From Chiridota heheva (lineage: Eukaryota > Echinodermata > Holothuroidea > Apodida > Chiridotidae), in assembly GCA_020152595.1 (NCBI GenBank), contig JAIGNY010002171.1:968501-1032500 (forward strand): DNA of 64,000 nt, written 5' to 3'. The number at the start of each line of letters is the position of its first letter. Positions within the stretch are counted from its first letter, which is position 1. The notes under the pieces are model-generated. The model was not told the origin of the DNA. It searched no databases and saw nothing but the letters and a program-made list of their open reading frames with translations. Below are positions 9,546 through 64,000 of the stretch, piece by piece. The translations under genes and the position numbers were made by a program.

Positions 9546-9879
9546 GATCGTTTTAAACTGACAAAGGTAACGTAATCACATGTAGTAGGCTTATTTGTTT
9601 TCCCATGTTTCATAACAACAACAAAACATTTGGAGCAATATCATGTTGACATAATTTTCTTCTCCTTGATGGGAAGGGGGGGGGGGGGGGGGTTAAGTTA
9701 ACCTGAAAGAACCGAAGATAATAATTAATAATTATTTACCAATTTCATGACTTTGCATTTCCGTCCTTCAAATCAGTCGTTTCACAGTGAACGTTCGTGC
9801 CCTCACTTGAAATATTGCTTCGCGGCCCATGCCCCTCCCATCCAAACCTAACATGCGTATGACGGCGTGAGGTCCAGAG
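9546..9879. other. Non-coding, with a long G homopolymer
   Basis: No gene seen. A run of about 17 G occurs at roughly 9676-9692. Such runs are often miscounted in assemblies. Confidence 0.6.
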
Positions 9880-10740: not shown

Positions 10741-10968
10741 GGAAGCCCGCGTTATAGTTTCAAGTTTTGTAGGTTTTTGTTTGTGTCGGCATTTGCCGAT
10801 ATGATTATATTTTGATTTGATAATACTTTTTGTGGCCTCCTGAACCTCAACCCGTGTTGAATTGCCGACAGGTCTGATGATTTGCCGACAGACCAATTTA
10901 TTGGGGGTGTCACTCCCCCCCCTCCCACCACCAACCCTCTAACTACGCCCTTATTTGAGCACTTTTTA

Positions 10969-11925
<957 letters not shown>

Positions 11926-15396: not shown

Positions 15397-17259
<1,863 letters not shown>

Positions 17260-32952: not shown

Positions 32953-35930
32953 AGTCTGATTTCATTTATTTGTTCATTCACAACTTGACATTGGATAAAA
33001 GAAAATTACAAAATAATGGATAATAAAAATTTGTAGCAAAATAAAGATAAGTGAACAGTCATATGTACATAATAGAATTAATTATATCAAGTTCTCAATT
33101 TTTTTTTGTATTTACAAAGAAAATTCTAATCAATGACAATTGATATAATAAATGACTGATTGATGCAAATTTGGATTGGGAGTGATTACAAAAACTCTAG
33201 TGAGCTTAACTTGACAAACACTCTCCTGGCTATAGAGGAGGCAAACTGATACATACTGTAGTTACTGACAACCCCCCCTCCTTCCCCTGTTTCCTTTAAA
33301 CTAACATATAACTAAATTTAAACAAGGAGGCTCCATAGTTCCACATCCCATCCCTACACACAATCATCCCACCCCAGTAACACAACCCTAAAAAGGAAAA
33401 AGAATAATATAATCTGTGCTTATGAAGTACTTCTTAAGATAATTCTTTATATTGGATATAGAATGAAAAGATTTATTATGTAATTGCAGGGAATTCCAGA
33501 CATTTACTGATCGATTTCTTAAGCTTTTTGGGCATTTTTGTTATTGCAGGAAAGAGCGTGAAAGTCATTACATTGTCGGTTATTGTAGGTGTGGATCTGG
33601 TTGTTTCTTAAGCTCTTTTGGGCATCGTTGCTATTGCAGGGAAGAGCGTGAAAGTCATTACGTTGCCGTGTGTTGTAGCTGTGGATCTGGCTGTTCCTTA
33701 AACTCTTTTGGGCTTTGTTGCTATTGCAGAGAAGAGCGTGAAAGTCATTACATTGTCGGGTATTGTAGCTGTGGATCTGGCTGTTCCTTAAACTCTCATG
33801 GGCTTTGTTGCTATTGCAGAGAAGAGCGTGAAAGTCATTACGTTGTCGGGTATTGTAGCTGTGGATCTGGCTGTTTCTTAAACTCTTTTGGGCATTGTTG
33901 CTATTGCAGGGAAGAGCGTGAAAGTCATTACATTGTCGGGTATTGTATCTGTGGCTCTGGCTGTTTCTTAAGCTCTTTTGGGCATTGTTGCTATTGCAGG
34001 GAAGAGCGTGAAAGTCATTACATTGTCGGGTATTGTAGCTGTGGATCTGGCTGTTTCTTAAGCTCTTTTGGGCATTGTTGCTATTGCAGAGAAGAGCGTG
34101 AAAGTCATTTTATTGTTGGGTATTGTAGCTGTGGATCTGGCTGTTTCTTAAACTCTTTTGGGCATTGTTGCTATTGCAGGGAAAAGCGTAAAAGTCATTA
34201 CGTTGTTGGGTATTGTAGCTGTGGATCTGGCTGTTTCTTAAACTCTCTTGGGCTTTGTTGCTATTGCAGGAAAGAGCGTGGAAGTCATTACATTGTCGGG
34301 TATTGTAGCAGTGGATCTGGCTGTTTCTTAAGCTCTTTTGGGCATTATTGCTATTGCAGGGAAGAGCGTGAACGTCATTACGTTGTCGGGTATTGTAGCT
34401 GTGGATCTGGCTGTTTCTTAAACTCTTTTGGGCATTGTTGCTATTGCAGGGAAGAGCATGAAAGTCATTTTATTGTTGGGTATTGCAGCTGTGGATCTGG
34501 CTGTTTCTTAAGCTCTTTTGGGCATTGTTGCTATTGCAGGGAAGAGCGTGAAAGTCATCACGTTGTCGGGTATTGTAGCTGTGAATCTGGCTGTTTCTTA
34601 AACTCTTTTGGGCATTGTTGCTATTGCAGGGAAGAGCGTGATAGTCATTACGTTGTTGGGTATTGTAGCTGTGGATCTGGCTGTTTCTTAAGCTCTTTTG
34701 GGCATTGTTGCTATTGCAGGGAAGAGCGTGAAAGTCATTAAGTTGTCTGGTATTGTAGCTGTGGATCTGGCTGTTTCTTAAACTCTTTTGGGCATTATTG
34801 CTTATTGCAGGGAAGAGCGTGGAAGTCATTACATTGTCGGGTATTGTAGCAGTGGATTGGCTGTTTCTTAAGCTCTTTTGGGCATTATTGCTTATTGCAG
34901 GGAAGAGCATAAAAGTCATTACGTTGTCGGGTATTGTAGCTGTGGATCTGGCTGTTTCTTAAACTCTTTTGGGCATTGTTGCTATTGCAGGGAAGAGCAT
35001 AAAAGCGTCATTACGTTGTCGGGTATTGTAGCTGTGGATCTGGCTGTTTTGGGTATCAAAAGTTTTATTTGTTGGATACTGTTAATACATCTAAACATAA
35101 ATGAAGCAATACTTTGGCTAGTAACATTTGGTAAATAGGAACTAGTGTGATCATATGGATTACAGGCAGCTGTGTGATGGATGGCTTTCTGTGGAGTAAC
35201 ATCAATTTGTGTAGGTTAGAATTGTTTGTACCTGACCAAACAATATGAGAGATGTGGTAATATCAAACTTACCTAAATACAATGCAAAATATTTTTATGC
35301 AAGAAATGTTTATGCTTAGATAGGATTCCCACACTTTTTGCAAGGGACACAGAATTAGCATTAATATGATCGGACCATGATTGTTTGGAATCTATTAGGA
35401 CGCCGAGGAATCTTATTTTATCAGTACGAAAGATAGGTTTACCATTGACTCGGCACAAATATTTAAATCATGATGGCAATTACCAAGAACCATGTAATTT
35501 GTTTTAGCAATATTTAAAGATCATTTATTTGCATTGAACAGTCATGAAATTTATTAAGTTCATAATATAGGTCTATTTTTTCGTTTAACATTTTAGGATT
35601 TTCTTCAAGAGAAAAATATATTTGTGTCGTCAGCAAATTACACAGGGGATGAAGTAGTAGGTACTTTACTTGTATCAATCATATAATAATAACAACAATG
35701 GGCCAAGGATTTGAGCCTTGTGAGACTCCGATCTGAAGGTTCCGAGCATGCACCATTGCTAAATTGTTTCCTATTCATACAGCTATAGAACCATGACACA
35801 TCTACCTTGTATTCCGTAATGAATGTCATGATAATGAATAGTGTTGAATGCCTTTGAAAGGTCTAAGAAAATACCAACTATAGTAAGCTTTTTATCCAAC
35901 GCATCATGCTCTTTATCCAGGGTTGTAGGA
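32953..35930 (-). mobile_element. Jockey/CR1-group LINE remnant A with reverse transcriptase motifs
   Basis: Read on the minus strand: [17 protein letters not shown] (RT motif A), a frameshifted G-SQGS region, FADDTNIFF (catalytic motif C, near 35630), KIRFLGVLIDSKQSWSDHIN, GILSKHKHFLHKNILHC, LSLILPHLSYCLLVW, HSYNTRQRNDFHALPC and finally SLRNRSVNVWNSLQLHNK. This is the order of a non-LTR reverse transcriptase through its C-terminus. The 5' part (endonuclease, RT fingers) is missing beyond about 35930. The 3' end lies at about 32953, next to GAATGAACAAATAAATGAAA-type sequence. The copy is inactivated by frameshifts. It shares its class with copy B at 44690. Confidence 0.85.
33512..35050 (-). 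repeat. 90-bp in-frame minisatellite inside the LINE RT C-terminus (A)
   Basis: About 17 copies of a 90-bp unit equal to 30 codons. On the LINE strand each unit encodes NSQIHSYNTRQRNDFHALPC followed by NSNNAQKSLR, the YNTR block that occurs once in normal elements of this type. The single-copy continuation SVNVWNSL follows the last unit at 33510. On the plus strand the same array gives a long Cys-rich open frame (CSCGSGC, CCYCREERESH) for 357 codons, which is an antisense by-product. Copies differ by a few bases, with occasional 1-bp indels near 34800. Confidence 0.92.
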
Positions 35931-41222: not shown

Positions 41223-43166
41223 GCTGAAATTGATCCTCCTCTGGCTGACCTATTTCGTAGAGATGAATTAGATCTCTTTTCATGCTTACCATCAGACACT
41301 CTAAACACTCTGCATACCCAACGTAAAAAAGAAATTGATCAGAAAATAAAAGCAAGACTTATGCATACAAACCACTCTGTGGATGGTCAAGAAACTGCTA
41401 AGGTTTTAAGAATTGTCCTTCTTGGTAAAACTGGTGCTGGGAAAAGCGCTACTGCCAATAGTATCCTTGGAGAGTCCTACTTTCATGAGAATGCTGGAGC
41501 TCAAACTGAATTTAACCTAGTAGAGGATAAAGTCTGTAACATAGACGGATACGAGCTACAACTCCTCGATACACCTGGATTTTTTGACACGGAAAGAGCG
41601 CCAGAAGAAGTTTTGCGAGAACTTTCTAAAATTCCAGATATTTGTGCAGACGGAGTGCACGCTTTCTGTTTCATCATTAAAGCAACCGATCACCGATTCA
41701 CAGTACAAGAAGCAGATGTTTTTAAGTATGCAAAGGTATGTTCTATTATTTATCATTCAATCACGGTCACATAGAGGACAAGATCTAGGATGATATATTT
41801 TAGTCTGTTTGTACATACAAGCTTCTTGCTCCGGTATTTAACTGCCCCTGCCCATCAACACAGCATAATGTGCTCGAAAGCAAGAAATTGAAATTTGTAG
41901 ATGGCACTTTATTCTTACGATTTTAGTTCATGGGCGGGATTAGCCCTCCAAAAATAAGGGGGAAAGGAACAAAGTAAAGAAAAGAAGAAGAAGAAAAATC
42001 ATTAAATCACGGGAAGGGGGGGGGGATTCTTTTTGGCACCCTAATCGTAAGGTTTAAGGTCATAGAGATTTTTTTCAGATTCAAAAGGATTTTCGGTTAC
42101 GAATTCTACACCTCAAATGACATTAGTGACTATAATATTGACCATGATCAGATCACAATTTTCCCATTCTTACGAAACAAGACCACAACATTTCGATGCA
42201 AAACAAAAGTTCCTCAGCATTATCTGATGTGGGGCTAATTTTTGTACAATTGTCTGCAAGAAAAACGTTTATCTTTGGAATGACATGTAAGTTTAAAATT
42301 ATCAAAACGTTGCGTTTATCATTAATACAGTTCAATGGTAGGTATAGTAGTTACCTAGGTAGTGACGTCTAATCGTGATTCGGAAAAATGGTACAACTGT
42401 ATCTTTGTTGCAAGGAAATAATCTCGCTACGCCGCTGCTTCTACAGTATAAATGAAATAATTTGCACTCTGATTATGTTTTGCCTTTATTTGTTGGAAGT
42501 TTGTCTGATGTTTGTTAATGTTCTGTTTTTGATATAATTCATCTTCTTACCTTTCAGACGTGTCTTGGTGATGATGTTCTTAAATTCAGTGTAATTGTTT
42601 TCACTTATGCTGATGCTAAGTTTAAAAAAGGTACCACTCTGACAGAATACCTTGGCAATGCCACCGGGGAATTCAAGGAGATCATTGATGAAGTAGATGG
42701 ACGGATCATGGCAATTGACAATAAAACCGAATCAGAGTATGAACGGGTTCTACAAGTTAAAGGGTTGATATCATTATTTCGGAAAGTTCAACAGAATCAA
42801 AAACGAGTGTACTCCAATGAGTTGTTTCAGTTTGCAAAGGAAGAGAAAACCAAGCTGAGAAACTTACAAAAAAAGCTTTTCCAAGAAATAGTGAGTCCTA
42901 TTCAGTACAAAACCAGGAAGAAAACATATTCCCAAGAGGCATGTTTTTCCCAACTAGAAAATGCTGATAAACCAGAAGGAATAAACAACAATGGCGATTT
43001 TCAAAGTTGTGGAGCAGCCACGAAGGATAAGTTCACGGTAGTTCCGGAAATGAGACCCAAAAGCTGTCCTATAGAAATTCCAGAGCTCAAGGCTCAGTAC
43101 TCAAGTCAAGACTTTTCAATAATATTGGGCCAACAGCATATCTTGCGACCTCCGAAGATCTCATGA
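41223..43166 (+). CDS. GIMAP/AIG1-family GTPase, two exons, frameshifted
   Basis: Exon 41223-41735 (171 codons, phase 0 at both ends) follows an AG acceptor and ends at a GTATGT donor. Exon 42559-43166 follows TTTCAG. The first exon opens with 46 codons of non-GTPase sequence ([19 protein letters not shown]), so coding exons or a 5' part lie upstream. The GTPase region has G1 [10 protein letters not shown]3 DTPGFFD, and the GIMAP conserved box [19 protein letters not shown]. In exon 2 there is TYAD at the G4 position and AIDNKTE at G5. GIMAP proteins are septin-like GTPases that often sit on membranes; outside vertebrates they are commonly expanded in aquatic invertebrates. Exon 2 has a one-base deletion at the T run 42599-42601: VIV is in one frame and FTYADAKF in the next. 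Either the copy is a pseudogene or the assembly dropped a T. Direct ~7-kb repeats lie on both sides. Confidence 0.88.
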
Positions 43167-44689: not shown

Positions 44690-46765
44690 AGTCTGATTTC
44701 ATTTATTTGTTCATTCACAACTTGACATTGGATAACAAGAAAATTACAAAATAATTAATAATAAAAAATTTGTAGCAAAATATAGATAAGTGAACAGTCA
44801 TATGTACATAATAGAATCAATTATATCAAGTTCTCAAAAAATACATATTTACAATGAAAATTCTAATCAATGACAATTAATATGATAAATTACTGATATA
44901 TGCAAGTTTGGATTGGGAGTGATTGCAAAAACTCTAGTGAGCTTAACATGGCAAACACTCCCATGGCTATAGAGCAAGCAAACTGATACATACTGTAGTT
45001 ACTGACAACCCCCCCCCCCTTCCCGCCCCGCATAGTTTCCCTTAAACTAACATATAATTTAAATTAACCAAGGAGGCTCCATAGTCCCACATACCATCCC
45101 TACACACAATCATTCCACCCCAGTAACACTACCCTAAAAAGGAAAAAGAATAATGTAATCTGTGCTTATAAAGTACTTCTTAAGATAATTCTTTATATTG
45201 GCTATAGAATGAAAAGATTTATCACGTAATTGCAGGGAATTCCAAACATTTACTAATCGATTTCTTAAGCTCTTTTGGGCATTGTTGTTATTGCAGGGAA
45301 GAGCGTGAAAGTCATTACGTTGTCGGGTTTTGTAGCTGTAGATCTGGCTGTGTCTTAAGCTCTTTTGGGCATTGTTGCTATTGCAGGAAAGAACGTGAAA
45401 GTCATTACGTTGTCGGGTATTGTAGCTGTGGATCTAGCTGTTCCTTAAACTCTTTTGGGAATTGTAGCTATTGCAGGGAAGAGCGTGAAAGTCTTTACGT
45501 TGTCGGGTATTGTAGCTGTAGAACTGGCTGTTCCTTAAACTCTTTTGAGCATTGTTGCTATTGCAGGGAAGAGCGTGAAAGTCATTTCATTATTGGGTAT
45601 TGTAGCTGTGGATCTGGCTGTTTCTTAAGCTCTTTTTGGGCATTGTTGCTATTGCAGGGAAAAGCGTGGAAGTCATTACATTGTCGGGTATTGTATTTGT
45701 GGCTCTGGCTGTTTCTTAAGCTCTTTTGGGCATTGTTGCTATTGCAGGGAAAAGCGTGAAAGTCATTTTATTGTCGGGTTTTGTAGCTGTGGATCTGGCT
45801 GTTTCTTAAACTCTTTTGAGCATTGTTGCTTATTGCAGAGAAGAACGTGAAAGTCATTACGTTGTCGGGTATTGTAGCTGTGGATCTGACTGTTTTGAGT
45901 ATCAAAGGTTTTATTTGTTGAATACTGTTAAAACATCTAAACATGAATGAAGCAATACTTCGGCTAGTAACATCTAGTAAATGACCATATGGATCACTGG
46001 TAGCTATGTGACGGATGGCTTTCTGTGGAATAATACAATTTGTTTAGGTTAGATTTGTTTGACAAACAATATGAGAGATGTGGTAATATCAAACTTAAGT
46101 GAATACAATGCCAAATATTTTTATGCAAGAAATGTTTATGCTTAGTTAGGATTCCCACACTTTTTGCAAGAGATACAGAAATGACATTAACATGATTGGA
46201 CCATGATAGTTCGGAATCTATTAGGACGCCAAGGAATCTTATTTTATCAGTATGAACGATAGGTTTACCATTGACTCGGTACAAATATTAAAATCATGAT
46301 GGCAATTACCAAGCACCACGTAATTTGTCTTAGCAATATTTGAAGATCATTTATTTGCATTGAACCAGTCATGAAATTGATTAATTTCATTACATAGGTC
46401 TATGTTATCTTCTAACCTTTTAGGATTTTCTTCAGAGAAAAATATATTTGTGTCGTCAGCAAATTACACAGGGGATGAAGTAGTAGGTACTTTACTTATA
46501 TCAATCATATAATAATAACCACAATGGGCCAAGGATTGAGCCTTGTGAGACTCCGATCTGAAGGTTCCGATCATGCACCATTGCTAAATTGTTTCCTATT
46601 CATATAGCTATAGAACCATGACACATATACCTTGTATTCCGTAATGAGACAGCTTGGATATGAGAATGTTATGATGAATAGTGTTGAATGCCTTTGAAAG
46701 GTCTAAGAAAATACCAACTATAGTAAGCTTTTTATCCAACGCATCATGCTATTTATCCAGGGTTG
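44690..46765 (-). mobile_element. Jockey/CR1-group LINE remnant B
   Basis: Paralogue of the LINE at 32953-35930. On the minus strand it keeps GVSQGSILGPL (RT motif around 46540, intact here but frameshifted in copy A), FADDTNIFF (near 46450), KIRFLGVLIDSELSWSNHVN, GILTKHKHFLHKN, LSLILPHLSYCL and the 90-bp array. Frameshifts and the missing 5' half show it is inactive. Confidence 0.85.
45257..45895 (-). repeat. 90-bp in-frame minisatellite inside the LINE RT C-terminus (B)
   Basis: About 7 copies of the same 90-bp, 30-codon unit as at 33512-35050, more diverged from one another than in copy A (for example GTAGAACTGG, TTTTTGGGC and GCTTATTGCAG variants). Confidence 0.9.

Positions 46766-51704: not shown

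Positions 51705-51787
<83 letters not shown>
51705..51787. repeat. TA microsatellite at the duplication/Maverick boundary
   Basis: (TA)n of about 82 bp, ending copy B and directly followed by AGTAGTATAGAGGGTGC, where the Maverick-associated sequence begins. Confidence 0.93.
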
Positions 51788-51789
<2 letters not shown>

Positions 51790-52445
51790 TAGTATAGAGG
51801 GTGCAGGATCACCCCAGGATCGGACCTTGAGGATCAGCCCCAGGATCGGACCTTGAGGATCAGCCCCAGGATCGGACCTTGAGGATCAGCCCCAGGATCG
51901 GACCTTGAGGATCAGCCCCAGGATCGGCCCTTGAGGATCAGCCCAGGATCGGACCTGAAGATCTACCGTCCAGGATCAGCCCCTCGAGGATCACCCCTCT
52001 AGGATCAACCTCCAAGATCACCCCTTGAAGATCTACCGTCCAGGATCACCCTCCAAGATTACCCCTCCAAGATTACCTCCCAGGATCGGACCTTGAGGAT
52101 CAACCCCTCCAAGATCACCCCTTGAAGATCTAAGGTCCAGGATCAGCCCTCGAGGATCACCCCTCTAGGATCAACCTCCAAGATCACCCCTTGAAGATCT
52201 ACCGTCCAGGATCACCCCTCCAAGATTACCCTCCAAGATTACCTCCCAGGATCGGACCTGAGGATCAACCCCTCCAAGATTACCCCTTGAAGATCTACCG
52301 TCCAGATCACCCCTCCAAGATTACCCTCTAGGATTACCTCTCCAAGATTACCCTTAAGGATTACCCCTCCAAGATTACCTCCAAGATCAGCCCTTAAGAT
52401 CAGCCCCTTAAGATTACCCTTCAGGATCACTCCTTCAGGATCGCT
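51788..52445. repeat. GGATC-rich subterminal tandem block, left arm
   Basis: Irregular short units such as CAGGATCGGACCTTGAGGAT, CCAAGATCACCCCTTGAAG and CCTCCAAGATTACC. The reverse complement starts at 63893 and runs off the window. It sits between the TA microsatellite and the integrase, where a Polinton terminal or subterminal repeat is expected. AGTAGTATAG at 51788 is a possible element end. Confidence 0.75.
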
Positions 52446-52452
52446 TATACCA

Positions 52453-52833
52453 TCAGGTTATTCGATAGAAAAAATTAAAATCAAGGAAATTGAAAAGAAT
52501 AAAAAGAACACTGATTTTATGTGGTGGTAATGTATATTCTATGACACACTCAGAAAAAATGATAAATACAACAACAATGGAATTCCAAGCAACATTAATC
52601 TTTAAGATACATTTTACAGTCTCCTTTCTTTTGATCATGCATCCAAGCTTTCCAATCACACGATTTTGCCATATCAGCGGCATCACAGCATGCAAAAGTT
52701 CATTAAAGAGTTTTTCATTGGTATCTGCTAGCCGGTGTTGTCGACACAAATCTGCAATAAAGAGTGAAAGGATGATGATTTGGTATGGACTGACATTTTC
52801 ACTATGCCCCAAAGCTTGTTTTGCTGCAGTCAC
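52453..52833 (-). pseudogene. Unrecognised ORF downstream of integrase, left arm
   Basis: A 126-codon frame containing SPYQIIILSLFIADLCRQHR and hydrophobic stretches near its end (IVVVFIIFSECVI). It lies directly downstream of the integrase remnant on the same strand, so it may be a frameshifted integrase tail plus unrelated sequence. The mirrored copy (about 63510-63885) is broken by indels. Function unknown. Confidence 0.35.
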
Positions 52834-52859
52834 TTTTAATCACATCTTTAGGTTTAGAG

Positions 52860-53540
52860 TCAATTTATCTGGTTTCTTCATTATTTAATGGTTTTACAAC
52901 TTCAGGTAGCCTTTTAACCCACTCTAACGAGTCGGAGCCACGAGGCGACTCCAATGCAATGCCCACATGGAGGCTCACCATTTCCTTAGCATACTTATGA
53001 AAGAATAAGTGTTTAGCTAAAGTTCTATTAAATCGCTCTGCAATCGCTTACGATCTATGGTCCCCAACTTCACCCCTCTGAATATTAACATTGTGGTTTT
53101 TCATTAAAGTGTTAACACTAGCCATAAAATCTTTCCGTGGGTCAACCTTCTTGATTATTTTTAGAAAGACCAACAGCCCCTTTTGTAGATTTTCTTAAAA
53201 GCATTAGCTACTTGAACTGCTGTTTTATCAGTAAGGGATTCAGCTTCCTTGTACCTGTTCGCCACATCGACGACTGTAAGTGCATATTTGTAGGTTTTTC
53301 TACCAATTGTATCATGTGGCAAAAATAACAGATCGGCTTCATGCAAGTCATTAAGTTTTGCGCTGTTACTATTCACACTCGTTGACCGTGGAATATATTT
53401 TAAAGGAGCCCTATATATTTGCCACAAAGCTTGTTTTGTTGAATATTCCTTAGTGACTTTATCTGTAACTCTTGCTTGTTTAGCTAGTTTCTTTATTGCG
53501 GCATCTCCTTTCCACTTTCCAGTACTGCTATAGTAAATGT
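52860..53540 (-). pseudogene. Polinton rve-family integrase, left arm, broken
   Basis: On the minus strand the frame begins around YYSSTGKWKGDAAIKKLAKQ (HHCC-like N-terminal region). It continues with LNDLHEADLLFLPHDTIGRK and YALTVVDVANRYKEAESL (first catalytic Asp block), then frameshifts to VDPRKDFMASVN, and ends with AIAERFNRTLAKRLFFHKY (catalytic Glu region) and EWVKRLPEVVKPLNNEETR. The enzyme would insert the element into host DNA. A stop codon just before AIAERF and at least one frameshift near 53160 inactivate it; the right arm carries the same stop. Confidence 0.85.
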
Positions 53541-53641
53541 TTCTTAATTTGTTTTTTTGTTGTGTGATCTATTCTCTTTACTTTTTACAGACATATTTTT
53601 AATTCCGAGTGTATGTATGGAGGAGGGTGAATTTCCTTTTC

Positions 53642-54163
53642 CTAGAACAATCTCAGTTTGTAATTAGTTTTTGTAGAATTTCCTCTATTTTTGTTTACAT
53701 TTTTATCCTTTTCAATTAATTTTTCTTTTTGTGATTTTAGTAATTGAGTAGTCCTGTTTTTGGTAGTCAAGTTATGTCTAATCTCTTCCTTCATTGCAGA
53801 AAACTTGTCAGATTCTCTCAAAGTTAATTCGAATTCTTCTTGGCTTATAACACCATCTTGTAAGGCTTCTGAAATATAACTTGATATAGTATTCAGTTTA
53901 GAAATAGCTAGAACCTTAATCTCATTATGCTTTTTGGCTTTCTTTATTAATTTTCGCGAAAAGTATTTAGAGAACATTACTCCGATGCCACAACTAAATG
54001 CAAACTCTTTCAAAATGATAAATATAGGCGCTGTTACAACACCTGATAAAGACACGATTCCAATTGAACCGCTAGCAATGGCTGCCACTTCTGCATAGTC
54101 TAATATATTAATAATTGTTTTTATAATTTGTATGTAATGACTAGCCTTGATTTTTCTTTTCAA
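53642..54163 (-). CDS. Polinton-associated TM/coiled-coil protein, left arm
   Basis: An intact 173-codon frame. Two hydrophobic segments (VAAIASGSIGIVSLSGVV and FIILKEFAFSCGIGVMF) near residues 25-65 are followed by a basic patch (SRKLIKKAKKH), a helical region (LNTISSYISEALQDGVISQE) and a Lys/Glu-rich coiled-coil tail. Similar hydrophobic-plus-helical proteins are, to my recollection, frequent in invertebrate Polintons, but I cannot name the function. The right-arm copy is frameshifted by loss of one A in the AAAAAG run, so the two copies test each other. Confidence 0.65.
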   Translation of the reverse strand: MKRKIKASHYIQIIKTIINILDYAEVAAIASGSIGIVSLSGVVTAPIFIILKEFAFSCGIGVMFSKYFSRKLIKKAKKHNEIKVLAISKLNTISSYISEALQDGVISQEEFELTLRESDKFSAMKEEIRHNLTTKNRTTQLLKSQKEKLIEKDKNVNKNRGNSTKTNYKLRLF

Positions 54164-54311
54164 TCTCCTTTTGAATGTTTTTAATTGTTTGCAACCTGTA
54201 TGCGTTTACGTTAGTGGGATTTTCTGGCAATTAAGGATAAATATTTGGATAATCTGGTTTTTTCTTTCATAATTTATTTTTCAATATATTTCAATTTCGT
54301 AGCAAATATAT

Positions 54312-54739
54312 TCTACGCCTCCAATAAATTTACAATTTGTTTTCTTAGCACACACACCGCATTAAAAGTATGTAGGAGTATCAAAATCAAATGCTTTATA
54401 TTTTATTCCATCAGCACTAAGAAACACCATTGATTTAATTCATAATTTCCAGCCCCGTACTGCACGCGCGATTAGTGCCCTTAATTCTAAATCCAAAAGT
54501 AGTAATACTTCCTCTGTAAGCCAAGACACGTTTCTGCATAAATCTTGGTTGCTTATATGCTCCATTCCATTCAATAGTTATATAATCATCTTCGTATGAA
54601 TTAGTTTTATCATTTTCGGAGTTTGATATTTTTCCTGTACTTATCTCTCCATATTTTTTTGTTTAAAGTATTTCAGTATTTACATATGTATTTAGTTCTG
54701 CCATTTTGTCATTGCCAAATTCTGGACCAAAGATACTCA
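54312..54739 (-). pseudogene. Polinton ORF starting MSIFGPEFGND, left arm, broken
   Basis: The frame begins MSIFGPEFGNDKMAELNTYV, meets a TAA after 25 codons, and continues in the same frame with ITIEWNGAYKQPRFMQKRV and TFGFRIKGT before a one-base shift to a short tail ending EA-stop. No recognised domain. The same TAA occurs in the right arm. Confidence 0.55.
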
Positions 54740-54764
54740 TTTTATTTACATATATAAAAATTAT

Positions 54765-55270
54765 GTTATTTCCAAAGTTAATATTACGGGTAGACCGTAG
54801 TTGTTGATTTCTTGTCCTTTGGAATCTTTTATACTGAACTTAAATTCACTAATTAGGCCTGGTATCAAAGGTTTCCTTTGAGAACGCTGCTATAGAAATC
54901 AATATGTATACTACTCCCAAAAGGTGTATCACCAGCAGGAATAATTTCTAAAAGATTTGAGGATTTTCCAAAAGTTATCACTTGCGGAAATTTGATCGCA
55001 GTGTATATAAATAGTTTCAAATGATTGAAAACTGATCATTTCCTTCCAATGTGTTTTCCATCTGCCAACCATCTATAATCCATACTAAATAAATCTGTTA
55101 ATTAGATTTCTCTGGTGGAATCATGAAGGCTACTCGTTCTGTTTATCTGTTTACGTTAATTTTCATCCATGGAACTTGTCTGGTTATTATGTAATAAAGC
55201 TGCAGAATGTTATAAAGGCCAGCTTCTAATAGTATTTCCGTAATTTCTCCCTTTGGAACATTATAATACC
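54765..55270 (-). pseudogene. Possible Polinton structural ORF, left arm, broken
   Basis: Fragments in shifting frames include LLEIIPAGDTPFG-like sequence, KPLIPGLISEFKFSIKDSKG and INNYGLPVILTLEIT. The beta-rich D--G--I---G-PV-LTL pattern is seen in virus-like minor structural proteins of such elements, but this assignment is inference. No intact frame. Confidence 0.4.
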
Positions 55271-55381
55271 CTACCCAATATATAACTGATTTTACGATTA
55301 TGGAACCCTCTTTGAATTTCGATTGCCAATAGGTTGCTCTAATATTATTGGTTAATCAAAAGTTTTTATTTCAAATGTATA

Positions 55382-56577
55382 ATGCATTTTTATTTTATAT
55401 CAAAAGATAAATTACATTATTTCCAATATAATTTCGAGGAATTTTTCAAAATAAATAAAGTAAACACCGTATATAAACCTGGAGTTAGTGAAACAGAATT
55501 TACACAGCAGGGTATAAGTATAGTAATATACATATCTGATAGTAAGAGTTTCCGCGCTACTTTTCCGAATATTTTTGAGAAATACAAGTCACCTCATGTT
55601 ACATCTGATAAAATTGTTAATTTGTGGAAACGTCAGCCAATGAGCTTTTGGCAAAATCAATTAAATTGTGTTACACGGATGGCGACAACGGGTTTGGGAT
55701 ATCTTATGTACATCTAAATCATGATAATCCTTTAATCAAAACTGTTTATAGATTTCAGATTATTAAAAGAAATGGGCTGTCCTACTCCATTTCAAAATTA
55801 TTGGTAGGTTTTCGAGAACAAGATAGATATCTCTGCCTATAAAAATATATGTGGACAGTTTCGTGTTTCACCCCATTCCATGTGGAACAACACGAAGATA
55901 ATTACAGCAATGGGTAGGGAACTGCTTACCATTATGATGGTGGTAAGTCACCCAGTGCCTGACAATGATTATGATAATTCTAGCTTAAACAACCCGTATG
56001 ATAAATGGAATGAATATACGACTGCTACAGAGATGAGTTTTGGTGATCATCCATTTAAGTATACTGTTGCATATATAGCTCAAGAGTGTAAGTAGTGCTT
56101 AGAAAGGATTTATTTTCGATAAAGGTAAATAAATATACGATGGGGATGAGGAGATGTATCATGTCATCGGAGGATCTGATGGATTTATAGATATCGGCGT
56201 AGAAAGGATCAATGATTCTATCCGAACATATATTTATGCGAGGAGCCCAAGTTCAGACAAAAACAAGCATGCTCGCTCCAGGGACCGGAACTGATGCGCG
56301 ACGACAATTTCTGAATATTGTTGAAGATTGTATTACCTCACCTGTTGATTTACAAGGCAGCATAGATCGCTATGAAGATTGTTTGCAATATGCACGAAGT
56401 AGTCTAAACTTCATGCTTGGGGAAGACCTGTACCTTATAACTTCGGATATGAATCTACGCATTGGAAAATACGAAGGCTATAATAACAACAACAATCAAA
56501 TAGCGGAATTATCAGAGATGAAGGCAATTAGTTTAGGTTTTATCCCACATGTTAATTCTGAACAGCGACGCGGATGA
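55382..56577 (+). pseudogene. Polinton virion-like protein gene, left arm, broken
   Basis: Consecutive plus-strand frames carry KINKVNTVYKPGVSETEFTQ, DKIVNLWKRQPMSFWQNQLN, then after a shift GISYVHLNHDNPLIKTVYRF, and finally GAQVQTKTSMLAPGTGTDAR and ITSPVDLQGSIDRYEDCLQY. The order and the GAQ-QT-T--GTGT-A block match, from memory, a long conserved protein of invertebrate Polintons thought to be structural. I cannot confirm that it is the major capsid protein. At least three indels interrupt it. Its 3' end runs into a GC-rich repeat. Confidence 0.55.
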
Positions 56578-56745
56578 TCGGGGGATCGGGGGACTCGAGG
56601 GAGCCATAGTCGTGCCAGTGCCCGCCCCGGAGCCTCGCGACTCAAGGGAGCCGGCAGGTGACTCAGCCTCGCGACCAAAGGGAGGGCAAGTGACTCGAGG
56701 GAACCGGCAGGCGACTCAAGCGAACCGGCAGGCATGCAGTAAATC
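56575..56745. repeat. GC-rich short repeat block, left arm
   Basis: About four imperfect ~21-bp units (GACTCAAGGGAGCCGGCAGG, GACTCGAGGGAACCGGCAGG) lie in an otherwise AT-rich element, between the virion-like ORF and the small membrane peptide. The mirrored copy at 59594-59764 differs by small indels. Confidence 0.75.
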
Positions 56746-56751
56746 GTGAAA

Positions 56752-56829
56752 ATGAAAAAGGTAGCCCTAATTGTTGGAATTCTAACCATCGCTGGAATTG
56801 GTTATATGCTTTATGAGGTACTAAGATGA
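56752..56829 (+). CDS. 25-residue hydrophobic peptide, left arm
   Basis: ATG to TGA, 25 residues: MKKVALIVGILTIAGIGYML then YEVLR. Lys-Lys start, one ~18-residue hydrophobic helix and a charged end, so a single-pass membrane peptide. The frame is identical in the right arm. Too short for routine gene calling. Small hydrophobic proteins occur in Maverick-like viruses, but the function here is unknown. Confidence 0.5.
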   Translation: MKKVALIVGILTIAGIGYMLYEVLR

Positions 56830-56931
56830 TACTTCTTTTTGTAGATACATACAAATCAAAAACCCTACACCCAGTAACGAGAGTCCAGACATGTTCAGCT
56901 AGTCATCCAACAGAACCGCTTAGCTGATGAA

Positions 56932-57651
56932 ATGTCAACTTTTAAAGATTTCCTCATATGGTATAATAACAAAGATGTCGTGCCATTTTTAGAGGCTCTT
57001 TCCAAAATGAGTCTTTTTTATAAGTCCAAAAGCATAGATATGTTCAAGGAAGGTATTTCTGTCCCAGGTTTAACGCTGAGATATTTATTTCAGAATCTGG
57101 AGGATCACTTTTGTTTATTCCCAGCAAAGCATAATGATTTATATCATTTGTTTAAAGATAACATTGTAGGGGCCCTCAATTATTTTTAATCGTCACCAGG
57201 AAAAAGACAGAACAAAAATCAAGGGGGCAAATTGTGTAAAAATTGCTGGTTATGATGCCAATGCCTCTACCTCTGGGCTGTCATGCAGGACATGCCTACA
57301 GGTGTCGCTTTAAGACGACGGGCTGATACTGGGTTCAGCTGTGAGTTTACCCACTGGCCCCAGATGACTTCTGTGGGGTGGTTGGAATGGAGGCCAAACA
57401 ACGGGGTATAACTATCCAGCATATACTCAATGGTAAAGAAGTGCGGATAGGAAAACGACAGTTACCTGTGGACGGGTTTGGTGCGGGGGTCATATATCAA
57501 TTTCATGGGTGTTTTTGGCATGGTCATCCATGTCAACTAACTGCAGGTAAAACCCATAACCACGTGAATGGCAAAACATTCTCTGAATTGTATCAGAAAA
57601 CGTGCGAAACAACCGCATACTTACAATCTTATTTTCAAGTGGTTGAAAAAT
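56932..57651 (+). pseudogene. DNA polymerase B N-terminal part, left arm, truncated at the fold-back junction
   Basis: The frame MSTFKDFLIWYNNKDVVPFL, DMFKEGISVPGLTLRYLF, HNDLYHLFKDNIVG is followed by shifts to GYDANA and FHGCFWHGHPCQL, then stops matching after LQSYFQVVEK. At 57651 the sequence switches to the antisense of the polymerase 3' half. In this arm a base is missing at GCCTCTACC (right arm GCCCTCTACC). The polymerase would be the protein-primed replicase of the element. Confidence 0.82.
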
Positions 57652-59407
57652 TCCCCCGAAACAATAAAAACATTTGCTGGACAAGGATACAATCCCATCC
57701 CCTCCCACTCAAGTTTGAACAACCCTGGGGTGCGCTTGTCATATTTTTGAGCTTCCTCTGGTTCTGTACGAGGAAACCATAAATGTTTTTCCTTTTCAAA
57801 TTTTTGTTTCATTTCTGGTTTTATTACATCCTCCAAAGACTGGGCAGCTATGGCAATATACGCTGAATCTGTATCCATCTCACAGTAGGCAAAATCAGAT
57901 TGGTCCACGAATACTGAGATGAAATCGTAGTAAAACTCTAACATTCTTAATTTTGCATACTGGTAGACAAAAATCCTATCTGAAGGGGCAAATCGAGCTT
58001 AACTTTACGTTTATAAAGTTCCACTTCATACATATTAAATTCAAGGGGTGTTAGTCTTTTAAAAAAAGGATCATTTACTTTTGCATACACTGAATCTTCA
58101 GTGCACACCTTAATATCAAGGTGCCTTTCTTTGTTTGTCACTGTTTTGCCACACGCCGAGTTGCCAATTAATTTCATAGTATCAGCTATAATAGACTTGG
58201 AAGGGTCTTTGTCCCCTTCCCTTCGAGCATTGTTGACTTCCTCACCAAAGGTTTTGAAAACCTGTTTTGGCGAGAATTGGATTATTTGATATATTTTAGT
58301 TACAACTAACCCGTGAGCTAGATACCATTTAACCAAAGGGGTGGTCAATAAAAGTTTCTTACCAAGCATACTGCCGATCAGACTACGTCGAGGTTGACTT
58401 AATAAGTTGTTTTCTTTAGCATATGTGGACATATGTTCCCCTATATCATCTATGGAAATGTCAACATTTTTAAATATGGGGGGCATTTCTGCAAATTTAG
58501 GTTTGAGGTGTTCGGGGACTTCAATATCGCATTCAACAGCACCAAAAATATGGCCTGATTGAATAAGACTTAGCAATTTGTCCTCTGGCATTGAACCTCG
58601 ATGCCCAACGGCATGGGGAAAGAGCTGAATGACAAAGTTGCGAATTTCAACAGAGTCTTTTTGCTCTTGCAGCCACTCGCACTCCCATTTTTCAACCACT
58701 TGAAAATAAGATTGTAAGTATGCGGTTGTTTCGCACGTTTTCTGATACAATTCAGAGAATGTTTTGCCATTCACGTGGTTATGGGTTTTACCTGCAGTTA
58801 GTTGACATGGATGACCATGCAAAAACACCCATGAAATTGATATATGACCCCGCACCAAACCCGTCCACAGGTAACTGTCGTTTTCCTATCCGCACTTCTT
58901 TACCATTGAGTATATGCTGGATAGTTATACCCGTTGTTTGGCCTCCCATTCCAACCACCCACAGAAGTCATCTGGGGCCAGTGGGTAAACTCACAGCTGA
59001 ACCCAGTATCAGCCCGTCGTCTTAAAGCGACACCTGTAGGCATGTCCTGCATGACAGCCCAGAGGTAGAGGGCATTGGCATCATAACCAGCAATTTTTTT
59101 TACACAATTTGCCCCCTTGATTTTTGTTCTGTCTTTTTCCTGGTGACGATTAAAAATAATTGAGGGCCCCTACAATGTTATCTTTAAACAAATGATATAA
59201 ATCATTATGCTTTGCTGGGAATAAACAAAAGTGATCCTCCAGATTCTGAAATAAATATCTCAGCGTTAAACCTGGGACAGAAATACCTTCCTTGAACATA
59301 TCTATGCTTTTGGACTTATAAAAAAGACTCATTTTGGAAAGAGCCTCTAAAAATGGCACGACATCTTTGTTATTATACCATATGAGGAAATCTTTAAAAG
59401 TTGACAT
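57640..59407 (-). pseudogene. Protein-primed DNA polymerase B (loop plus right arm), nearly complete but frameshifted
   Basis: Read on the minus strand from 59407: MSTFKDFLIWYNNKDVVPFL, ISVPGLTLRYLF, a shared one-base frameshift near 59166, then GYDANALYLWAVMQDMPTG (polymerase motif A region), FHGCFWHGHPCQL, a 303-codon open stretch 58858-57947 with SLIGSMLGKKLLLTTPLVKW and MKLIGNSACGKTVTNKERH (motif B), and after another shift YCEMDTDSAYIAI (motif C, DTDS) and FKLEWEGMGLYPC. The gene then breaks at the fold-back junction near 57652, so the C-terminal thumb end is missing. This is the only place in the window where motifs A, B and C occur together. Confidence 0.87.
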
Positions 59408-59509
59408 TTCATCAGCTAAGCGGTTCTGTTGGATGACTAGCTGAACATGTCTGGACTCTCGTTACTGGGTGTAGGGTTTTTGATTTGTATGTATCTACAA
59501 AAAGAAGTA

Positions 59510-59587
59510 TCATCTTAGTACCTCATAAAGCATATAACCAATTCCAGCGATGGTTAGAATTCCAACAATTAGGGCTACCTTTTTCAT
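59510..59587 (-). CDS. 25-residue hydrophobic peptide, right arm
   Basis: Mirror of 56752-56829 with the same 25 codons. Preservation of this small frame in both arms is expected from the recent duplication and is not in itself evidence of selection. Confidence 0.5.
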   Translation of the reverse strand: MKKVALIVGILTIAGIGYMLYEVLR

Positions 59588-59593
59588 TTTCAC

Positions 59594-59764
59594 GATTTAC
59601 TGCATGCCTGCCGGTTCGCTTGAGTCGCCTGCCGGTTCCCTCGAGTCACTTGCCCTCTCCCTTTGGTCGCGAGGCTGAGTCACCTGCCGGCTCCCTTGAG
59701 TCGCGAGGCTCCGGGGCGGGCACTGGCACGACTATGGCTCCCTCGAGTCCCCTGATCCCCGATC
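59594..59764. repeat. GC-rich short repeat block, right arm
   Basis: Mirror of 56575-56745 (GCCTGCCGGTTCCCTCGAGT, CGCGAGGCTGAGTCACC). It differs by small indels, such as CCCTCTCCC here versus GGGAGGGC on the other strand in the left arm. Confidence 0.7.
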
Positions 59765-60957
59765 ATCCGCGTCGCTGTTCAGAATTAACATGTGGGATAA
59801 AACCTAAACTAATTGCCTTCATCTCTGATAATTCCGCTATTTGATTGTTGTTGTTATTATAGCCTTCGTATTTTCCAATGCGTAGATTCATATCCGAAGT
59901 TATAAGGTACAGGTCTTCCCAAGCATGAAGTTTAGACTACTTCGTGCATATTGCAAACAATCTTCATAGCGATCTATGCTGCCTTGTAAATCAACAGGTG
60001 AGGTAATACAATCTTCAACAATATTCAGAAATTGTCGTCGCGCATCAGTTCCGGTCCCTGGAGCGAGCATGCTTGTTTTTGTCTGAACTTGGGCTCCTCG
60101 CATAAATATATGTTCGGATAGAATCATTGATCCTTTCTACGCCGATATCTATAAATCCATCAGATCCTCCGATGACATGATACATCTCCTCATCCCCATC
60201 GTATATTTATTTACCTTTATCGAAAATAAATCCTTTCTAAGCACTACTTACACTCTTGAGCTATATATGCAACAGTATACTTAAATGGATGATCACCAAA
60301 ACTCATCTCTGTAGCAGTCGTATATTCATTCCATTTATCATACGGGTTGTTTAAGCTAGAATTATCATAATCATTGTCAGGCACTGGAGTGACTTACCAC
60401 CATCATAATGGTAAGCAGTTCCCTACCCATTGCTGTAATTATCTTCGTGTTGTTCCACATGGAATGGGGTGAAACACGAAACTGTCCACATATATTTTTA
60501 TAGGCAGAGATATCTATCTTGTTCTCGAAAACCTACCAATAATTTTGAAATGGAGTAGGACAGCCCATTTCTTTTAATAATCTGAAATCTATAAACAGTT
60601 TTGATTAAAGGATTATCATGATTTAGATGTACATAAGATATCCCAAACCCGTTGTCGCCATCCGTGTAACACAATTTAATTGATTTTGCCAAAAGCTCAT
60701 TGGCTGACGTTTCCACAAATTAACAATTTTATCAGATGTAACATGAGGTGACTTGTATTTCTCAAAAATATTCGAAAAGTAGCGCGGAAACTCTTACTAT
60801 CAGATATGTATATTACTATACTTATACCCTGCTGTGTAAATTCTGTTTCACTAACTCCAGGTTTATATACGGTGTTTACTTTATTTATTTTTGAAAAATT
60901 CTCGAAATTATATTGAAATAATGCAATTTATCTTTTGATATAAAATAAAAATGCATT
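59765..60957 (-). pseudogene. Polinton virion-like protein gene, right arm, broken
   Basis: Mirror of 55382-56577 on the minus strand with the same conserved blocks. Private differences include TTGGGAAGACC here versus TTGGGGAAGACC in the left arm, which moves the end of the last frame. Confidence 0.55.
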
Positions 60958-61069
60958 ATACATTTGAAATAAAAACTTTTGATTAACCAATAATATTAGA
61001 GCAACCTATTGGCAATCGAAATTCAAAGAGGGTTCCATAATCGTAAAATCAGTTATATATTGGGTAGGG

Positions 61070-61575
61070 TATTATAATGTTCCAAAGGGAGAAATTACGG
61101 AAATACTATTAGAAGCTGGCCTTTTATAACATTCTGCAGCTTTATTACATAATAACCAGACAAGTTCCATGGATGAAAATTAACGTAAACAGATAAACAG
61201 AACGAGTAGCCTTCATGATTCCACCAGAGAAATCTAATTAACAGATTTATTTAGTATGGATTATAGATGGTTGGCAGATGGAAAAACACATTGGAAGGAA
61301 ATGATCAGTTTTCAATCATTTGAAACTATTTATATACACTGCGATCAAATTTCCGCAAGTGATAACTTTTGAAAATCCTCAAATCTTTTAGAAATTATTC
61401 CTGCTGGTGATACACCTTTGGGAGTAGTATACATATTGATTTCTATAGCAGCGTTCTCAAAGGAAAACCTTTGATACCAGGCCTAATTAGTGAATTTAAG
61501 TTCAGTATAAAAGATTCCAAAGGACAAGAAATCAACAACTACGGTCTACCCGTAATATTAACTTTGGAAATAACA
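61070..61575 (+). pseudogene. Possible Polinton structural ORF, right arm, broken
   Basis: Mirror of 54765-55270. The plus-strand fragment KPLIPGLISEFKFSIKDSKG then INNYGLPVILTLEIT ends at a TAA just before the next ORF. Confidence 0.4.
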
Positions 61576-61598
61576 TAATTTTTATATATGTAAATAAA

Positions 61599-62026
61599 AT
61601 GAGTATCTTTGGTCCAGAATTTGGCAATGACAAAATGGCAGAACTAAATACATATGTAAATACTGAAATACTTTAAACAAAAAAATATGGAGAGATAAGT
61701 ACAGGAAAAATATCAAACTCCGAAAATGATAAAACTAATTCATACGAAGATGATTATATAACTATTGAATGGAATGGAGCATATAAGCAACCAAGATTTA
61801 TGCAGAAACGTGTCTTGGCTTACAGAGGAAGTATTACTACTTTTGGATTTAGAATTAAGGGCACTAATCGCGCGTGCAGTACGGGGGCTGGAAATTATGA
61901 ATTAAATCAATGGTGTTTCTTAGTGCTGATGGAATAAAATATAAAGCATTTGATTTTGATACTCTACATACTTTTAATGCGGTGTGTGTGCTAAGAAAAC
62001 AAATTGTAAATTTATTGGAGGCGTAG
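61599..62026 (+). pseudogene. Polinton ORF starting MSIFGPEFGND, right arm, broken
   Basis: Mirror of 54312-54739. TAA at 61674 and a frameshift near 61910, then VFLSADGIKYKAFDFDTLHT to a TAG at 62024-62026. Confidence 0.55.
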
Positions 62027-62176
62027 AATATATTTGCTACGAAATTGAAATATATTGAAAAATAAATTATGAAAGAAAAAAACCAGATTATCCAAATATT
62101 TATCCTTAATTGCCAGAAAATCCCACTAACGTAAACGCATACAGGTTGCAAACAATTAAAAACATTCAAAAGGAGA

Positions 62177-62690
62177 TTGAAAAGAAAAATCAAGGCTAGT
62201 CATTACATACAAATTATAAAAACAATTATTAATATATTAGACTATGCAGAAGTGGCAGCCATTGCTAGCGGTTCAATTGGAATCGTGTCTTTATCAGGTG
62301 TTGTAACAGCGCCTATATTTATCATTTTGAAAGAGTTTGCATTTAGTTGTGGCATCGGAGTAATGTTCTCTAAATACTTTTCGCGAAAATTAATAAAGAA
62401 AGCCAAAAGCATAATGAGATTAAGGTTCTAGCTATTTCTAAACTGAATACTATATCAAGTTATATTTCAGAAGCCTTACAAGATGGTGTTATAAGCCAAG
62501 AAGAATTGAATTAACTTTGAGAGAATCTGACAAGTTTTCTGCAATGAAGGAAGAGATTAGACATAACTTGACTACCAAAAACAGGACTACTCAATTACTA
62601 AAATCACAAAAAGAAAAATTAATTGAAAAGGATAAAAATGTAAACAAAAATAGAGGAAATTCTACAAAACTAATTACAAACTGAGATTGT
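62177..62690 (+). pseudogene. Polinton-associated TM/coiled-coil protein, right arm, frameshifted
   Basis: Mirror of 53642-54163. The frame ends early (about codon 84) because the run in GCCAAAAGC is one A shorter than in the left arm; a further one-base loss near 62505 (GAATTGAATT versus GAATTCGAATT) follows. Confidence 0.7.
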
Positions 62691-62799
62691 TCTAGGAAAA
62701 GGAAATTCACCCTCCTCCATACATACACTCGGAATTAAAAATATGTCTGTAAAAAGTAAAGAGAATAGATCACACAACAAAAAAACAAATTAAGAAACA

Positions 62800-63480
62800 T
62801 TTACTATAGCAGTACTGGAAAGTGGAAAGGAGATGCCGCAATAAAGAAACTAGCTAAACAAGCAAGAGTTACAGATAAAGTCACTAAGGAATATTCAACA
62901 AAACAAGCTTTGTGGCAAATATATAGGGCTCCTTTAAAATATATTCCACGGTCAACGAGTGTGAATAGTAACAGCGCAAAACTTAATGACTTGCATGAAG
63001 CCGATCTGTTATTTTTGCCACATGATACAATTGGTAGAAAAACCTACAAATATGCACTTACAGTCGTCGATGTGGCGAACAGGTACAAGGAAGCTGAATC
63101 CCTTACTGATAAAACAGCAGTTCAAGTAGCTAATGCTTTTAAGAAAATCTACAAAGGGGGCTGTTGGTCTTTCTAAAAATAATCAAGAAGGTTGACCCAC
63201 GGAAAGATTTTATGGCTAGTGTTAACACTTTAATGAAAAACCACAATGTTAATATTCAGAGGGGTGAAGTTGGGGACCATAGATCGTAAGCGATTGCAGA
63301 GCGATTTAATAGAACTTTAGCTAAACGCTTATTCTTTCATAAGTATGCTAAGGAAATGGTGAGCCTCCATGTGGGCATTGCATTGAGTCGCCTCGTGGCT
63401 CCGACTCGTTAGAGTGGGTTAAAAGGCTACCTGAAGTTGTAAAACCATTAAATAATGAAGAAACCAGATAAATTGACTCT
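62800..63480 (+). pseudogene. Polinton rve-family integrase, right arm, broken
   Basis: Mirror of 52860-53540: YYSSTGKWKGDAAIKKLAKQ, LHEADLLFLPHDTIGRKTYK, VDPRKDFMASVN, a TAA, then AIAERFNRTLAKRL and EWVKRLPEVVKPLNNEETR. The stop before AIAERF (near 63287) is shared with the left arm. Confidence 0.85.
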
Positions 63481-63892
63481 AAACCTAAAGATGTGATTAA
63501 AAGTGACTGCAGCAAAACAAGCTTTGGGGCATAGTGAAAATGTCAGTCCATACCAAATCATCATCCTTTCACTCTTTATTGCAGATTTGTGTCGACAACA
63601 CCGGCTAGCAGATACCAATGAAAACTCTTTAATGAACTTTTGCATGCTGTGATGCCGCTGATATGGCAAAAATCGTGTGATTGGAAAGCTTGATGCATGA
63701 TCAAAAGAAAGGAGACTGTAAAATGTATCTAAAAAGATTAATGTTGCTTGGAATTCCATTGTTGTTGTATTTATCATTTTTCTGAGTGTGTCATAGAATA
63801 TACATTACCACCACATAAAATCAGTGTTCTTTTTATTCTTTTCAATTTCCTTGATTTTAATTTTTTCTATCGAATAACCCTGATGGTATAAG

Positions 63893-64000
63893 CGATCCTG
63901 AAGGAGTGATCCTGAAGGGGTAATCTTAAGGGCTGATCTTAAGGGCTGATCTTGGAGGGGTAATCTTGAGGGTAATCCTTAAGGGGTAATCTTGAGAGGT
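63893..64000. repeat. GGATC-rich subterminal block, right arm (cut by window end)
   Basis: GATCCTGAAGGAGTGATCCT, GGGGTAATCTTAAGGGCTGA and related units, the reverse complement of 52340-52445. Continues past the window. Confidence 0.75.

Follow-up and report, generated by a model that had tools for sequence, protein, structure and literature searches.

Can a mirror-image Polinton (Maverick) in an animal genome be genuine mobile DNA, and if so, how did one half of the element come to be doubled? The question is raised by a 64,000-nt stretch of DNA from the sea cucumber Chiridota heheva (assembly GCA_020152595.1, contig JAIGNY010002171.1, positions 968,501 to 1,032,500 of the forward strand; hereafter the window), in which an element starting at position 51788 is built of two reverse-complementary arms. 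To our knowledge, reported Polinton/Maverick elements carry each gene once. We consider it probable that a copy-back (snap-back) event gave rise to the window element as a defective Polinton, that it was mobilized in trans and that its arms were re-equalized by one arm templating the other. The evidence favors the original prediction of a palindromic Maverick derivative produced through a fold-back switch.

The window element is an inverted repeat around a single-copy loop

Self-BLAST of the window revealed one inverted pair (52336-57651 against 64000-58687; 5337 columns, 99.08% identity, 5 mismatches and 44 gap bases), which confirmed the two predicted reverse-complement arms, with coordinate sums of about 116338, and the loop of 1035 nt between them (57652-58686). 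Blocks of exact complementarity are present along both arms, and given its length a chance origin of the inverted repeat is out of the question. When 52840-57651 was re-aligned globally to its mirror, 15 substitutions were found in 4798 columns, 7 of them within the inner 0.7 kb, and 20 of the 22 single-base gaps lay beside the same base, i.e. homopolymer noise. The predicted arm length of about 5.9 kb stands for the left arm, which reaches the terminus at 51788; only about 5.3 kb is comparable, since the partner in the right arm extends past 64000.

The features of the element are listed below. Insertions are named by contig (C2156 being the window insertion), and ref positions refer to a linear copy on C3513, as contig position minus 419000. 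J1 denotes the fold-back junction of the window element, and families 1 and 2 are two Polinton families described in the following sections.

51705-51787: (AT)n microsatellite just outside the left end of the element (Tandem Repeats Finder, TRF; 41.5 copies)
51788-52442, plus strand: left terminus AGTAGTATAGAGGGTG followed by a 26-bp-type minisatellite, within the terminal inverted repeat (TRF arrays)
52443-52833, plus strand: terminal unit common to family-1 copies, e.g. C1717, C3225-2 and C2917 (matches ending at or near 52833/63503)
52834-56931: outer part of left arm, family 2 (genome matches at 94-100%, many in inverted pairs)
53164-53568, minus strand: integrase-like fragment in left arm, mirrored in right arm (PF00665, rve, E 0.0016, below cut-off)
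56932-57651: inner part of left arm, a slice of the family-1 polymerase gene in copied-back orientation (99.3% to ref 11169-10447, minus)
57621-58858, minus strand: two polymerase open reading frame (ORF) fragments, 57947-58858 and 57621-57944
57650-57652: junction J1, at which ref 10447 (minus) meets ref 9409 (plus); 2-bp AT overlap
57652-58686: single-copy loop, the downstream part of the family-1 polymerase gene, read on the minus strand
58687-59406: inner part of right arm, native continuation of the polymerase slice (57650-59407 matches ref 9409-11169 unbroken)
59407-63502: outer part of right arm, family 2, mirror of 52834-56931
63503-64000: right terminal unit, then the first part of the minisatellite; terminus not visible

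The matches to the terminal unit at 52443-52833 are 97-99% identical to its right-hand copy at 63503-64000, and the terminal motif of the left end also occurs at the ends of C1717, C3225-1, C3225-2, C2014 and C3006. The terminal repeats of the window (51788-52442) and of its relatives consist largely of 26-bp-type minisatellite, and the distance from the terminus to the inner unit differs between copies.

Gene content identifies a Polinton

The ORF at 57947-58858 has 259 homologues; among the 120 listed, PF03175 is present in three, which identifies the ORF as part of a family-B DNA polymerase. The best named relatives are from the sea cucumbers Holothuria (67% identity over 69% of the query) and Apostichopus (69% over 57%), with others from anemones, a coral and a brittle star; the polymerase fragments themselves gave no direct Pfam match and nothing useful from PHROGs. 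The integrase-like fragment at 53164-53568 matched the family-1 integrase by tblastn (E 2e-7, 30% identity), and the linear relative C3513 carries a retroviral-type (rve) integrase (PF00665, 57.1 bits, cut-off 32.6). Candidate capsid, ATPase and protease ORFs, chosen by eye in the linear relative, had no Pfam match, and one capsid candidate had no PDB match. An Rfam scan of the window gave nothing at the gathering threshold.

The replication mode of Polintons has so far been deduced from gene content, and from the polymerase type the elements described here would likewise be replicated by protein priming. AGT-repeat termini were found at the left end of the window element, AGTAGTATAG, and at both ends of nine other copies. 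Vertebrate Mavericks are described as having (AGT)2//(ACT)2 termini and perfect 6-bp target duplications (PMC8097293).

According to the original prediction, every gene apart from the 3′ half of the polymerase was doubled. This is roughly right, the polymerase part downstream of the arm slice being single-copy in the loop; it over-reads the arms, which hold short, broken ORFs and a slice of the polymerase gene.

Further insertions carry the same junction

The 1.1-Gb assembly (3744 contigs) was searched with the loop sequence, and the best 40 of 51 candidates were scored. At least 20 near-full-length copies at 98-100% were found, plus one of 905 nt. We examined 23 insertions, leaving out shorter matches of at least 97% on C3134, C812 and C1123. 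The reference copy C3513 is about 14.5 kb long and has terminal repeats, the rve integrase, broken polymerase ORFs and the target duplication GACACA. Including C3513, 14 of the 23 insertions are linear across the loop region and 9 are folded back.

Six of the folded insertions carry J1: the window copy, C1717, C952, C494, C3225-2 and C3228. The junction is identical in the window, C1717, C952 and C3225-2, and C494 has a change a few bases beyond it; C3225-2 is otherwise rearranged and truncated, and C3228 retains just 11 bp of the copied-back arm. The remaining three fold back elsewhere: C3006 does so at ref 10011 and is nearly loopless, in C866 about ref 10018 is fused to ref 9439, and in C2781 ref 9542 meets about ref 9423 across the 10-nt inverted match AAAAACATTT. 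The same terminus at both ends, a stem and a loop were observed in C1717, C952, C494 and C2781, with C3006 nearly loopless and the right end of the window copy unseen. The proposed search for further palindromic Polintons in this genome thus yielded five more J1 insertions and three with other junctions. A single unique event was therefore rejected, as the same junction lies at several loci beside other junctions and a second palindromic family; in place of one failed molecule there is a multi-copy group with several junctions, in which the window copy combines sequence from two families.

The turn points of separate fold-backs cluster at ref 9409-9439 (about 30 bp) and at 10011-10018 (about 10 bp), and this clustering suggests pause or break sites within the polymerase gene. 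A search with the left half of the element (best 40 of 69 candidates) revealed near-identical inverted pairs on two contigs, C1055 and C3225, the latter due to one element nested inside another. The pair at C1055:4917-12589, two family-1 left halves 3.7 kb apart, is a possible left-half fold-back. The left half seems rarely doubled, a bias that is not controlled by a matching right-half count.

Palindromic copies are flanked by target duplications

Of six family-1 fold-back insertions in which both ends could be read, five are flanked by perfect 6-bp target duplications: C1717 (TCATTG), C952 (CCAGGG), C3006 (CATGGC), C2781 (CAAAAT) and the truncated C3225-2 (CCCAAG). The first four are palindromes, spanning 9-14 kb, and all five have AGTAGT...ACTACT termini. 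All three linear copies inspected in the same way have such duplications as well (C3225-1, GATGTT; C2014, TAATAA; C3513, GACACA). Across related copies with both ends read, the 6-bp duplication was present in 8 of 10, the exceptions being C494 and C145. When the 100 bases beyond both ends were compared in mirror, 24 were alike for C1717, 23 for C952 and 26 for C3006; the flanks are thus unlike, and each palindrome ends at the element termini.

One matching duplication outside the Polinton termini indicates that the five fold-backs integrated already folded. The four complete palindromes are integration substrates, which is shown for these copies and not for the window copy. The duplications are decisive, for the copies that bear them, against both chimeric assembly and rearrangement in place.

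These data bear on two alternatives. A missed adapter or a fold-back read might have created the palindrome during long-read assembly. Such an origin fits the single-base arm gaps, most of which lie beside the same base as is usual in long-read assemblies (20 of 22 in the window), the location of C3006 and C952 on contigs shorter than 40 kb, and the missing duplications of C494 and C145. It is contradicted by the identical junction on six contigs, by the perfect 6-bp duplications flanking four palindromes, and by the palindromes of C1717, C952 and C3006, which stop at the element termini with unlike flanks. We regard an artefact as extremely improbable, and for the family it was rejected on the repeated junction, the target duplications and the unlike flanks. 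The assembly chimera that had been offered as an alternative is accordingly excluded for the five duplication-bearing copies; the window copy, with its right end masked, is not independently covered by this exclusion.

Alternatively, two elements might have inserted head to head, or one might have undergone an inverted duplication in place after insertion, with the center trimmed later. Nested Polintons do exist, C3225-2 lying inside C3225-1, and C494 has no target duplication. Head-to-head insertion would, however, leave internal termini and separate duplications, whereas the five fold-backs show one matching outer duplication, and the same internal junction occurs at unlinked loci. This origin was rejected for the duplication-bearing copies and is very unlikely overall. 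The palindromes flanked by target duplications show that mirror-image defective Polintons can be mobile DNA rather than assembly errors.

A second, largely palindromic family makes up the outer arms

The outer arms of the window element (52840-56900) have no DNA match to the family-1 copy C3513. In the genome they have at least 40 matches at 94-100%, and in the arm search (best 36 of 311 candidates scored) they occurred as inverted pairs on 15 of the 22 contigs listed and as a single arm on the other 7. An insertion of cargo, considered for these outer arms, was dropped; the sequence is a second, largely palindromic family (family 2).

Among the matches listed, the centers of the family-2 inverted pairs measure 1.91-1.93 kb in nine cases, 2.5 kb in the window and 0-0.76 kb in five others. 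A search with the loop of C145 (best 40 of 137 candidates scored) revealed one complex center common to at least eight copies (C1852, C2, C3690, C3291, C140, C797, C2205 and C3262). C145 and C753 share a different center, with relatives at about 79-87% among the candidates scored. Despite the differing centers, the arm distance of C145 and C753 nearly equals that of C2, C1852, C3690, C3291, C140, C797 and C2205 (1.91-1.93 kb), which may be a coincidence or a length-keeping rearrangement. At C2 the right end is flanked by AATAGG (right end only).

Family 2 might then be taken for a normal Polinton with very long terminal inverted repeats, the palindrome being its functional genome form. Nine copies with nearly the same 1.91-1.93 kb center agree with this, while the center occurs in at least two different arrangements, the ORFs of the window arms are short and broken, and 7 of the 22 contigs listed hold a single arm. 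The relatives at 79-87%, known by sequence match, may also speak against it. We hold a functional palindrome to be very doubtful.

The change from family 2 to family 1 lies at 56932 and at 59407, with 2 bp of microhomology and at the same nucleotide in both arms. The window element is therefore a mosaic, its outer arms being family 2 and its center family 1. Since a non-homologous breakpoint is unlikely to arise twice at one nucleotide, either the switch occurred in one arm and was transferred to the other by copying, or the fold-back was formed later than the switch. For J1, which C1717, C952 and C494 also carry, the latter would require a renewed origin at the same nucleotides. Another inter-family switch was observed at C2538:2911577, where a linear family-1 stretch is joined to family-2 center sequence.

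Arms are mostly more alike within than between elements

Within elements, the arms differ by 5.2 (C1717), 4.4 (C952), 5.0 (C494), 5.0 (C3006), 4.6 (C2781) and 11.8 (C866) substitutions per kb, and arms of different J1 elements by 6.9-15.7 per kb. The arms are thus mostly more alike within an element than between elements of the same junction. In an arm tree of 16 rows, the arms of C952 and C494 form a clade (99/96), inside which the two arms of each element are sisters (96/94 and 95/94). Pairing these arms by position was rejected (approximately unbiased test, p-AU 0.021 and 0.0098; the pairs were chosen with the tree already known). Fifteen substitutions are present in both arms of C1717 and in none of the other 14 rows, and eight columns (two of them adjacent) are exclusive to the J1 arms of C1717, C952 and C494, the highest count of 120 element triples.

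The main rival to an arm re-equalizing step is repeated formation at a hotspot. J1 would be a preferred site of replication failure, at which independent copy-backs arose from different linear parents; the palindromes would neither breed nor have their arms equalized, and similarity of the arms within an element would follow at once. The weak rejection of a clade of all J1 arms (p 0.044) agrees with this, as do other junctions nearby (ref 9409, 9423 and 9439; 10011 and about 10018) and some loop substitutions that J1 copies have in common with linear copies, none being found in all J1 copies. However, J1 is exact to the nucleotide in six copies while the other events differ; the C952 and C494 clade and the eight exclusive columns tie J1 arms together, C1717 and C3228 have three loop substitutions in common, and one complex center recurs in at least eight family-2 copies. 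The family-2 switch in both window arms must likewise be arm-copied or precede yet another J1 event. We judge repeated formation unlikely, though it deserves more weight than the other alternatives.

Proposed mechanism

In the copy-back reading that we prefer, a strand primed at the right terminal repeat would be copied leftward into the polymerase gene as far as ref 9409 (9409-9439 or 10011 across the junctions). After pairing over a few bases between its 3′ end and a site some 1 kb earlier on the same strand (ref 10447), the strand would be extended back to the terminal repeat from which it had started. The product would carry this one terminus at both ends and would lack working genes. Possible traces of such fold-back priming are the 10-nt inverted match at C2781, the 2 bp at J1 and the near-loopless C3006; the arms of C866 are not sisters. 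As the product would have no working genes, its movement would depend on proteins of other copies; both this mobilization in trans and a hairpin intermediate are what we infer. Because the arms are self-complementary, one could template the other in a later round, a step that is partly shown. Arm-on-arm templating would account for the same family-2 switch in both window arms and for arms more alike within than between elements.

The following observations weigh against this reading. The 2500 bases after window position 64000 are N, and the right end and target duplication of the window element are masked; N runs at the loci checked begin just past multiples of 500 and may be masked tiles. The J1 palindrome C494 (2849217-2861254) has both termini but unlike outside 6-mers (ACCACG/CACAAG), for which later flank exchange or deletion is possible. 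C145, the sole family-2 element whose two end stretches were read, lacks a clean left terminus as well as a duplication. The J1 overlap of just 2 bp is weak support for annealing. Pairwise re-alignment over other, partly longer stretches gave 4.4 (C1717), 6.4 (C952), 7.8 (C3006), 6.5 (C2781) and 3.1 (window) substitutions per kb, so that the margin between within- and between-element values is method-dependent and small for C952. All J1 arms as a single clade were weakly rejected (p-AU 0.044), and loop substitutions do not unite the J1 copies, the informative sites being too few; a single J1 event thus needs arm exchange or recombination, or else J1 formed repeatedly. The arms of C866 are not sisters in the tree and differ by 11.8 substitutions per kb, so this copy looks like a switch between two molecules, and pure intramolecular snap-back was not upheld for every copy.

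More tentatively, the palindromes might themselves breed. A copy-back Polinton lineage would transpose via a half-genome or hairpin intermediate, one arm being rewritten from the other in each cycle. One illegitimate inter-family switch would be mirrored into both arms, and palindromes of two families would recombine into symmetric mosaics such as the window element. This extension is conceivable, somewhat short of an even prospect. If it is true, transcripts of the palindromes would form long hairpins, with the potential to silence their parent elements.

Other features of the window

Candidate AIG1/GIMAP-type GTPase ORFs, judged by eye, lie at 41223-43166. The same 90-bp minisatellite occurs in two arrays 10 kb apart (33515-35049 and 45261-45895), and a G+C-rich 18-bp array at 15399-16608 raises the local GC to about 0.61.

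Discussion

Copy-back products fixed in a genome are a direct record of Polinton replication failure in which the switch points can be mapped. They show that a large DNA element can lose one half of its genome, carry the other in duplicate and yet integrate. If the arms are equalized in each cycle, this would be an unusual route to concerted evolution of mobile DNA. Such palindromes are easily mistaken for assembly errors and so may be under-reported.

Like the vertebrate Mavericks described in PMC8097293, the elements have a family-B polymerase, an rve integrase, (AGT)2//(ACT)2 termini and 6-bp duplications; the term 'palindrom' is absent from the main text of that paper. Unlike them, the elements here have one half doubled and the other half lost. 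The fly Foldback elements (FB/TU) are also mobile elements consisting mostly of long inverted repeats. They differ in belonging to another superfamily and in not being copy-back derivatives of a self-synthesizing element. Origin-dependent inverted-repeat amplification (ODIRA; PMC10766183) concerns chromosomal copy-number change in yeast, as opposed to a mobile element that has termini of its own. Among the matches listed from the open-licence PMC literature, none reports palindromic Polintons.

Adeno-associated virus (AAV) is a parvovirus with self-priming hairpins. Its subgenomic 'snapback' DNA, a major category of defective particles according to the abstract of PMC8235507, resembles the elements here in that half of a linear genome is doubled back on itself. 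Unlike AAV snap-backs, the copies here have been amplified and sit within an animal genome, flanked by target duplications. Copy-back defective interfering genomes of negative-strand RNA viruses and symmetric defective genomes of adenovirus, whose replication is protein-primed, consist of a switch, a loop and a copied-back stem with one terminus at both ends. The geometry observed here is the same. The RNA-virus copy-backs, made by an RNA polymerase, and the adenovirus defectives differ in that neither are integrated mobile elements, as the palindromic Polintons of C. heheva are.

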